A stretch of 64,000 nt of DNA, from positions 275,112-339,111 of the forward strand of contig NZ_AOIP01000015.1 in assembly GCF_000337535.1 (NCBI RefSeq), in the 5' to 3' direction. Shown piece by piece: positions 2,139 to 54,740 of the stretch (its first letter is position 1; the number at the start of each line of letters is the position of its first letter). The DNA comes from Natrialba aegyptia DSM 13077 (lineage in GTDB: Archaea > Halobacteriota > Halobacteria > Halobacteriales > Natrialbaceae). The notes beneath the pieces are model-generated. The model searched no databases. It was not told the DNA's origin and saw only the letters and a program-made list of their open reading frames with translations. The position numbers were made by a program, and so were the translations under genes.

Positions 2139-2147
2139 GTTATATTA
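2139..2147 (+). promoter_or_regulatory. TATA box of structured RNA copy 1
   Basis: GTTATATTA lies centred about 28 nt before 2171, where the first helix of the RNA candidate begins. This is the spacing expected for an archaeal TATA box and transcription start. The matching element before the second copy supports the call. Confidence 0.6.
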
Positions 2148-2170
2148 CTCTCCTTGCGAAACTGTCAGAA

Positions 2171-2315
2171 TGGAAGTCACCTCCAAACGAATACGCGGGG
2201 GCATGCGTACGAAATGCCCCGGGTGCTACAACACCCGAGACGTGGCTTCCACTGCGGCTCGCAATGGTTGCCATGTTTCCATTACTGCTACCGAGACAAA
2301 AAGCTCTCGCACGAC
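2171..2315 (+). ncRNA. Candidate structured RNA, copy 1
   Basis: No known family is recognised. The RNA would begin at 2171 with one arm of a 10-bp closing helix (TGGAAGTCAC 2171-2180 pairing with GTGGCTTCCA 2242-2251, one G-U pair). Inside it are hairpin P2 (GGGGCAT 2198-2204 with ATGCCCC 2214-2220) and hairpin P3 (GGGTG 2221-2225 with CACCC 2232-2236), then the linker GAGAC (2237-2241). After the closing helix come GCCATGTTT (2270-2278) and hairpin P4 (CGAGA 2292-2296 with TCTCG 2305-2309), followed by CACGAC. The same plan occurs at 54496-54617 on the other strand with changed but still pairing bases. An ATG at 2170 opens a reading frame through the region, but the second copy has no equivalent ATG, so translation is unlikely. 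The 3' end is set at the last shared bases. An IS200/IS605 end or omega-RNA-like remnant is the main alternative. Confidence 0.6.
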
Positions 2316-2418
2316 GGACAGGGATAGCTATCGCTCACGACCAGCGCACGGAGCCGTCTGGCTCCACGTACGGACCTGCACCGGATTGTATCCTCGCTCC
2401 CCAGCGGAGGCGGCGTCG

Positions 2419-2676
2419 ATGACCGCAGAGTTCGACGGCCCGGCCGACGGGTCGATATCCTGCGATTCGCACACCCAGGATCCGACCGACCTCGACGCAC
2501 AGAACGAGACGGTCTGCTACCGCTGTGACCGCCCCATCGACGCCGACCGCTGGATCCGCCTCACCGCGCGTCCGGGACCCGGCGTGACAGGCACTTACGA
2601 AGCCACCAGCCGGCCCTGCTGTCCCGACTGCGCGGCGGCCCTCGGACTGCTCGAGTTCACCGTCGATCCACGGTGA
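2419..2676 (+). CDS. Small CxxC zinc-binding protein
   Basis: An 85-residue protein with an acidic N-terminus followed by CYRC (about residues 35-38) and, 30 residues on, a second cluster (CCPDC), the layout of a zinc ribbon or finger. It ends in a short hydrophobic tail (AAALGLLEF). The ATG at 2419 is chosen because the longer frame upstream runs through the structured RNA candidate and lacks haloarchaeal codon character. The gene starts about 100 nt after that RNA, and the gene after RNA copy 2 also encodes a small protein with a CxRCxxPI motif. The function is unknown. Confidence 0.62.
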   Translation: MTAEFDGPADGSISCDSHTQDPTDLDAQNETVCYRCDRPIDADRWIRLTARPGPGVTGTYEATSRPCCPDCAAALGLLEFTVDPR

Positions 2677-54098: not shown

Positions 54099-54293
54099 TC
54101 AGTCGTCGGAGTCCGATTGTGAGCGCGTGCCGACGCGGGGGGCGACGCGACAGCCGCAGGGACCGGCGATGGCTTCGCCCGGCCCGATCATGGTCCGCTG
54201 GACGATGGGCGTGTTACAGCGGGGACAGCGCGGAAACGGGGTTTCTGAACCGTCCGTCGTGTCGCCGGGGTCCGCATTGTCGGGATCCGTCAT
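54099..54293 (-). CDS. Small cysteine-motif protein downstream of RNA copy 2
   Basis: From the ATG at 54293 the protein has 64 residues (MTDPDNADPGDTTDGSETPF). The core PRCPRCNTPIVQRTMIGPGE and then AGPCGC holds one CxxC pair and a CxC pair, a zinc-ribbon-like layout, and the Ser/Asp-rich tail is typical of haloarchaea. A GTG at 54434 would add a low-complexity Thr/Asp/Gly head of 47 residues. The first structured block, CPRCNTPI, recalls CYRCDRPI in the protein after RNA copy 1. The upstream RNA ends about 60-200 nt before the start, depending on the start chosen. Confidence 0.65.
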   Translation of the reverse strand: MTDPDNADPGDTTDGSETPFPRCPRCNTPIVQRTMIGPGEAIAGPCGCRVAPRVGTRSQSDSDD

Positions 54294-54495
54294 GGACACC
54301 TCCGACCCGAGGGATTCCGCGTCGTCCGTCTCGCCGGTATCAGTGCTAGCCGTGCTCGTCTCGTCCGTTCCGCCGGTGCCGTCGCTAGTCGCGTTGCGTG
54401 CGGCGTCACCGTCGTCGGTCACGCAGTCGAACACCTCGGCGCATTCCCGAGACCACCTGTAAGAGCCGCTGCTCGCTTGGGATACCGATCCGTCA

Positions 54496-54617
54496 GTCGT
54501 GCGGGATGTTTATATCCCGTGAGAATGTACGCAATCATGGCTTTGACCCTTGCGGGGTGGAAGCCACGTCTCGGATGCTCTAACATCCGGGACACTTTCA
54601 TGTCCGATGTGGCTTCC
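54496..54617 (-). ncRNA. Candidate structured RNA, copy 2
   Basis: This is the counterpart of the RNA at 2171-2315. The closing helix is GGAAGCCAC (54617-54609 on the minus strand) with GTGGCTTCC (54567-54559), 9 bp. Inside are P2 (GGACA/TGTCC, 54605-54590) and P3 (GGATG/CATCC, 54588-54573), then GAGAC (54572-54568). GCCATGATT follows about 17 nt after the helix, and P4 (CGGGAT/ATCCCG, 54519-54502) runs into CACGAC. P3 differs from copy 1 by an A-T to G-C exchange, P1 by a C-G to U-G exchange, and P2 and P4 have other bases that still pair. Such changes argue for selection on RNA shape. No protein frame is shared by both copies across this segment. Confidence 0.6.
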
Positions 54618-54642
54618 GTCCTAATTGTTAACTGGTAGTGAC

Positions 54643-54650
54643 TTATATCT
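54643..54650 (-). promoter_or_regulatory. TATA box of structured RNA copy 2
   Basis: AGATATAA on the minus strand is centred about 30 nt before the first helix of the RNA (54617). The spacing equals that in copy 1. Confidence 0.6.
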
Positions 54651-54740
54651 ACCGCTGAACGACGGGAAGGAGCGCCTGCTACTGGCCCCGTGGGACCCGG
54701 ACCACAGAACTCGACCGTCTGAACTGAACTCGGTGCTCGC

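Follow-up and report, generated by a model that had tools for sequence, protein, structure and literature searches.

A multi-copy family of leader RNAs in Halobacteria with a predicted helix exchange at the start codon

Two copies of the element in the window

The window, a stretch of 64,000 nucleotides from Natrialba aegyptia, holds two copies of the element: copy A at 2172-2279 on the forward strand and copy B at 54617-54502 on the reverse strand, in agreement with the coordinates given by an earlier, sequence-only reading of this DNA. That reading described the same order of elements in both copies, and this order is present at both loci (Table 1). In each, a TATA box precedes a three-way junction of helices P1, P2 and P3, which begins at the predicted transcription start and is followed by a small ORF and a second ORF (ORF2). 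Both copies fold better than their shuffles (z -3.6 for copy A and -4.4 for copy B). We built covariance model R1 from 14 copies of the own genome and used R2 as a broader model; the core scores 47.7 bits with R1 and 68.5 bits with R2 in copy A, and 97.5 and 89.5 bits in copy B. The alternative helix of copy A covers the start codon ATG 2273-2275, and the ATG of its ORF2 overlaps the stop of the small ORF (ATGA). In copy B, GGCUU at 54565-54561 is complementary to AAGCC at 54543-54539, immediately 5' of ATG 54538-54536, and the GTG of ORF2 overlaps the small ORF stop (GTGA).

The structured core of the earlier reading stands, and its P4 hairpin (P5 here) keeps its pairing. The 3' part of the element is, however, coding sequence of the small ORF: the P4 and CACGAC segment corresponds to codons 7-14, and what had been described as a GCCATG(A/T)TT segment is the start codon plus its upstream motif. 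The linker GAGAC, regarded as invariant, falls in a different light as well, the copy A stretch G2237-C2246 being able to pair with the start-codon region G2270-C2279 in the predicted MFE structure. The central feature, namely that the 3' arm of P1 is also complementary to the start-codon region, had been missed.

Table 1 Positions of the features of copies A and B in the window
Feature	Position	Strand	Basis or detail
TATA box, copy A	2140..2147	+	Sequence; AT peak -31 to -26 from P1 in 79 homologues
Three-way-junction core, copy A	2172..2250	+	P1 2172-2180/2242-2250
P2 and P3, copy A core	P2 2198-2204/2214-2220, P3 2220-2225/2232-2237	+	Covariation, 101 homologues
Alternative helix, copy A (predicted)	2237-2246 with 2270-2279	+	Predicted MFE; cross-family complementarity test
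Small ORF, copy A, 49 codons, MFPLLLPRQKALARR...	2273..2422	+	Translation
Hairpin P5, copy A	2292-2296/2305-2309	+	Codons 7-13; pair counts
ORF2, copy A, 85 aa CYRC..CPDC-type small protein	2419..2676	+	Translation
TATA box, copy B	54642..54648	-	Sequence
Three-way-junction core, copy B	54559..54617	-	P1 54617-54609/54567-54559, P2 54605-54590, P3 54589-54572
Switch strand and pre-start motif, copy B (predicted)	54536..54567	-	Cross-family complementarity test
Small ORF, copy B, 39 codons, MIAYILTGYKHPARL...	54419..54538	-	Translation
Hairpin P5, copy B	54519-54502	-	Inside small ORF
ORF2, copy B, 107 aa acidic protein with CPRC..PCGC zinc-ribbon core	54099..54422	-	Translation

Distribution, junction and promoter

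The core string GAGACGTGGCTTCC has 15 exact occurrences in the own genome, and at E<=1e-4 R1 and R2 together, as well as R2, give 19 copies there. The earlier description as a two-copy structure is therefore superseded, and a two-copy ncRNA is ruled out. The covariance-model search suggested by that reading found many homologues with covarying stems. R1 matches 47 of the 243 genomes of the order and R2 114 of the 391 genomes sampled across Halobacteria; the R2 matches span nine or more GTDB families. In a phylum-level sample only six of 197 genomes match; all six belong to the family of the window itself, which shows the models to be specific. The highest numbers of copies per genome are 33 (G098), 28 (G143 and G288) and 26 (G218); a second expansion is seen in family f4, genus g78 (17 copies in G233), and a third in Haladaptataceae. 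An exact scan with the core string found it within Natrialbaceae in Natrialba, Natrinema, Halovivax, Halopiger, Halostagnicola, Natronorubrum and others, and beyond the genera of this family in one match each in Haloparvum and a Halobacteriales MAG. Close relatives retain near-identical copies. One copy of the own genome (L025, G000 C31:107148-107245) is decayed, with ACG instead of the start ATG and without ORF2.

An alignment of 101 homologues, which was fitted to the model and is hence biased towards it, has 97% of its P1-P3 cells paired and double changes in 13 of the 21 pairs; double-change cells number 105, compared to 32 ± 6 for shuffles and no more than 14 on sliding. Where the P3 loop has six nucleotides, C.A (37, expected 26) and U.G (18, expected 8) are over-represented at its closing positions; these pairs are isosteric. 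Copies of Natrialbaceae consist of a TATA box, the P1-P2-P3 core about 30 nt later, a hairpin of variable sequence, and [A]AGCC directly 5' of ATG. The TATA hexamer starts at a median of -32 from P1 (79 homologues), as the claimed spacing required. The variable hairpin has a median fold z of -2.3, with at least 4 bp in 83%, and the distance from the core to the start codon is 11-36 nt in every homologue. An inverted repeat, GGTAG..CTACC, surrounds the TATA box in most copies of the own genome; the TATA box of copy B lies between its arms (window 54631-54655, reverse strand). Outside Natrialbaceae, perfect inverted repeats of 7-12 nt, different in each copy, occur in some promoters. By their sequence these promoter repeats appear operator-like.

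A scan of the window at the Rfam 15 gathering thresholds gave 0 matches, and at E<=5 both elements gave chance matches only (E 0.5 and 3.9). A known Rfam RNA is thus ruled out, and neither copy has the Rfam match that the earlier reading had named as counter-evidence. Of its proposal of a new haloarchaeal ncRNA or leader family, the leader holds and the stand-alone ncRNA does not. Judged by sequence and predicted structure, the leader is a new RNA family with riboswitch-like logic.

Small ORF and downstream proteins

In Natrialbaceae the ATG that follows [A]AGCC opens a small ORF, which has 39 codons in most own copies and about 30-55 overall; its usual N-terminus is M[IF]AYIL[PT]GYK[HR]PAR.... 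Its first stop lies within 17 nt of the ORF2 start in 112 of 124 loci and forms exactly ATGA or GTGA in 82 of them, a conserved stop/start overlap of the kind seen in translational coupling. ORF2 offsets were assigned by an automatic rule; at a few loci it chose an incorrect frame, and inspection showed that the true ORF2 overlaps there as well. Over the same stretch frame 1 is open in 48 of 112 and frame 2 in 71 of 112, frame 0 being open by construction of the rule. It is frame and overlap, and not peptide conservation, that support translation of the small ORF. The codon-position figures of its tail are 49/50/56, without bias, compared to the biased 26/25/68 of ORF2, which suggests that the peptide is perhaps unimportant or only weakly translated. 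Hairpin P5 is 91% paired and has 31 double-change cells compared to 11 in shuffles. As the conserved codons 1-14 also hold P5 and the tail is unbiased, we do not conclude that the peptide is a conserved product. At L110 (G178 C1:691400-692360) an in-frame TAA replaces AAA codon 10, which is otherwise invariant and lies in the hairpin loop.

The genes downstream vary and encode CPxCG zinc ribbons, CYRC..CPDC proteins, SWIM zinc fingers and HalOD1-like domains. ORF2 of the own genome encodes a small acidic protein whose zinc-ribbon core reads CPRC...GP...PCGC, copy A having a CYRC...CCPDC protein instead. Residues C9, C12, C32 and C34 of the zinc-ribbon ORF2 are invariant in a 40-member alignment. 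The core is predicted confidently (pLDDT about 93); its model has no significant match among PDB folds, the weak ones being ribosomal zinc-ribbon proteins, and a PDB sequence search with ORF2 gave short CxxC matches only. Searches of ORF2 against Pfam and NCBIfam gave no family at cut-off. HalOD1 (PF18545) scores 25.6 and 25.8 bits (E about 1e-5) with the ORF2 of L062 and L121, just under its cut-off of 26.3. At L121 a HalOD1-like domain is fused to a CPRC..PCGC zinc ribbon after one leader, which joins two of the downstream families. RefSeq has no annotated gene at ORF2 in either of the two plasmid records that were checked. At L020 and L021 (G000 C39:48020 and C55:37797) the leader and small ORF are intact, and ORF2 has diverged or lost its zinc-ribbon core.

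In Haladaptataceae the leader lies directly 5' of a SWIM zinc-finger gene without a small ORF, and the AUG is the SWIM start. We looked for the leader upstream of SWIM genes of Haloferax and Haloprofundus, where it is absent; SWIM genes therefore do not require it.

Alternative helix at the start codon and its interpretation

Families that differ in sequence share a complementarity between the 3' arm of P1 and the 6-8 nt immediately 5' of the start codon. The cores of the 3' arm and the pre-start segment are GGCUUC/GAAGCC, GGUCUUC/GAAGACC, GGCUUUC/GAAAGCC, GGUUUC/GAAACC and GGGUUC/GAACCC, and further GGUUGUC/GACAACC, GGCUGU/GCAGCC, CUGUCUC/GAGACAG, GCUUCUC/GAGAAGC and GCUUCUG/CAGAAGC. For 79 leaders of many families, the mean helix score of the pre-start 12 nt with the P1 3' arm is 5.68, compared to 4.40 ± 0.12 when permuted; the maximum among 1000 permutations was 4.81, so that the observed value was never reached, and flanking control windows score 4.0-4.2. 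Since the permutation ignores relatedness, the corresponding z of 11 is inflated and the argument depends on how many distinct cores there are, a number independent of relatedness. At least six Watson-Crick pairs are found in 42 of the 79 leaders, and in 70 of them the helix extends up to the AUG or stops 1 nt short of it. Outside Natrialbaceae at least six pairs occur in 38 of 58 leaders, where 10 would be expected (maximum 19), and the complementarity is kept by ten or more distinct core sequences. Within Natrialbaceae alone, column-wise covariation of the alternative helix is little and not significant, because the start codon and its neighbouring positions hardly vary. Pairing is limited to 3-4 nt in some copies.

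This complementarity across families indicates that P1 and the predicted start-codon-blocking helix share one strand, as in a translational riboswitch. The predicted energies favour the P1 state by a mean of 3.6 kcal/mol, with a difference within 5 in 59%; in the alternative state about 6 of the 9 nt around the AUG are predicted to be paired. The MFE structure differs among paralogues, some adopting the P1 state and some the alternative helix. Two conserved, mutually exclusive helices, their position relative to promoter and start codon, and the ORF overlap can all be read from the aligned sequences.

We consider that the element is probably a cis-acting bistable translational leader of mRNA. 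Transcription would start at the 5' arm of P1, and P1 would be the first to form during transcription. In the ON state P1 would close the P2/P3 three-way junction and leave the start codon free. In the OFF state the 3' arm would quit P1 and pair with the 6-8 nt 5' of the start codon, in some copies taking in the start codon too, and initiation would be blocked. The balance would depend on a ligand or factor acting in trans that makes the junction more or less stable. In Natrialbaceae, control of the small-ORF start would reach the zinc-protein ORF2 by termination-reinitiation; in Haladaptataceae the SWIM gene's own start would be controlled directly. We infer that the helix exchange alters translation, the direction of its effect and the existence of a trigger. 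Stem loops in one haloarchaeal 5' UTR matter for translational control in vivo (PMC2636863), a synthetic translational riboswitch is functional in Haloferax volcanii (PMC8241225), and termination-reinitiation at ATGA-type overlaps in archaea, haloarchaea included, is the subject of PMC6728339.

Other explanations have to be weighed against this leader. Small Cys-rich zinc-binding proteins often bind nucleic acids, and the leader is nearly always 5' of small Cys-rich, presumably zinc-binding proteins. The encoded protein might then bind the P1-P3 junction and repress its own translation, as with ribosomal-protein leaders, which have been predicted for Halobacteria (S15; PMC7247131). We regard this as rather unlikely. 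The same junction precedes unrelated CPxC..PCGC, CYRC..CPDC, SWIM and HalOD1-like proteins, at least four downstream types, where a ribosomal-protein-type leader is restricted to one family. A common mode of self-binding is therefore unlikely, and a single regulator of all is possible. With one junction before unrelated, mostly Cys-rich small proteins, a shared signal or regulator is a likelier explanation than one autoregulator per protein. The predicted preference for P1 and its early formation would also suit a static 5' UTR, in which P1 guards the mRNA 5' end or tunes translation without any signal-driven exchange of helices; this is improbable, as it leaves unexplained both the conserved P2/P3 junction and a pre-start region that tracks the P1 3' arm through many changes.

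Its own promoter, strong structure and many paralogues per genome would fit a trans-acting small RNA whose transcript ends after P4 or P5 and targets other mRNAs, the ORFs being incidental. We hold this very improbable, since every homologue has its start codon at the stated short distance with a pre-start motif complementary to the P1 3' arm, a protein ORF is next in nearly all, and the Haladaptataceae AUG belongs to the SWIM gene itself. Dispersal in many copies also recalls a mobile-element end (IS200/IS605, MITE) or a CRISPR-like repeat, which we consider hardly credible. There is no transposase among the nine window neighbours examined (PQQ, DAGK, NUDIX, luciferase-like, RDD and others), so the IS200/IS605 end that the sequence-only reading had set as a refutation is not seen there. 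Conservation tracks promoter, RNA core and ORF and not element ends; the Natrialbaceae core has no match in IMG/VR contigs or phage records; and the lack of an Rfam match and the near-identical copies in close relatives also stand against it.

A bolder version of the preferred bistable leader is a new riboswitch class found throughout Halobacteria: a metabolite or ion would bind to the junction itself, and the start codons of as many as 33 mRNAs in a cell would be gated directly. We put this forward tentatively and at somewhat less than even chances; zinc is one candidate ligand, given the downstream genes. If true, the class would be among the most numerous archaeal cis-regulatory RNAs known and would work without a Shine-Dalgarno sequence. 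We do not claim membership in the translational riboswitches, for which ligand binding is the defining test. As in those with P1 as switching helix and a purine-riboswitch-like junction, a structured conserved domain lies in a promoter-proximal mRNA leader, and the P1 3' strand is shared between exclusive helices, one of which hides the start, a likeness that is weak within Natrialbaceae alone. Unlike them, the leader has no Rfam sequence or structure match and no assigned ligand, differs in gene content, lacks a Shine-Dalgarno motif in its archaeal start region, and reaches up to 33 copies per genome.

We found no description of this leader in the open-access literature searched. The archaeal ribosomal-protein leaders, S15 of Halobacteria among them (PMC7247131), are likewise structured and cis-acting in the same archaeal class, but each serves one protein, whereas the present leader serves several unrelated small proteins and has a covarying start-codon switch helix. 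In coupling through short upstream ORFs (iraD/CsrA, PMC5574718; archaeal ATGA, PMC6728339) control is likewise exerted on an upstream ORF with a stop that overlaps the next start; the present upstream ORF differs in that its start is the predicted switch target and that other haloarchaeal families lack it. The family offers dozens of natural copies per genome and a clear compensatory-mutation test.

Haloarchaeal C(P)XCG zinc-finger u-proteins (PMC11241148, PMC10716476) are also very small and Cys-rich, but they are defined by two C(P)XCG motifs, whereas the type-I ORF2 combines one CPxC with a CGC motif and reaches the cut-off of no Pfam family. The leader links to many unannotated small zinc proteins, and finding its trigger would give them physiological context. 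Among the proteins after the leader outside Natrialbaceae (L261-L357), a C-terminal CxC..(L/F)PCxxC recurs in otherwise unlike proteins. Plasmids of Haladaptatus carry the leader-linked SWIM zinc-finger type in up to 25 genes per plasmid.
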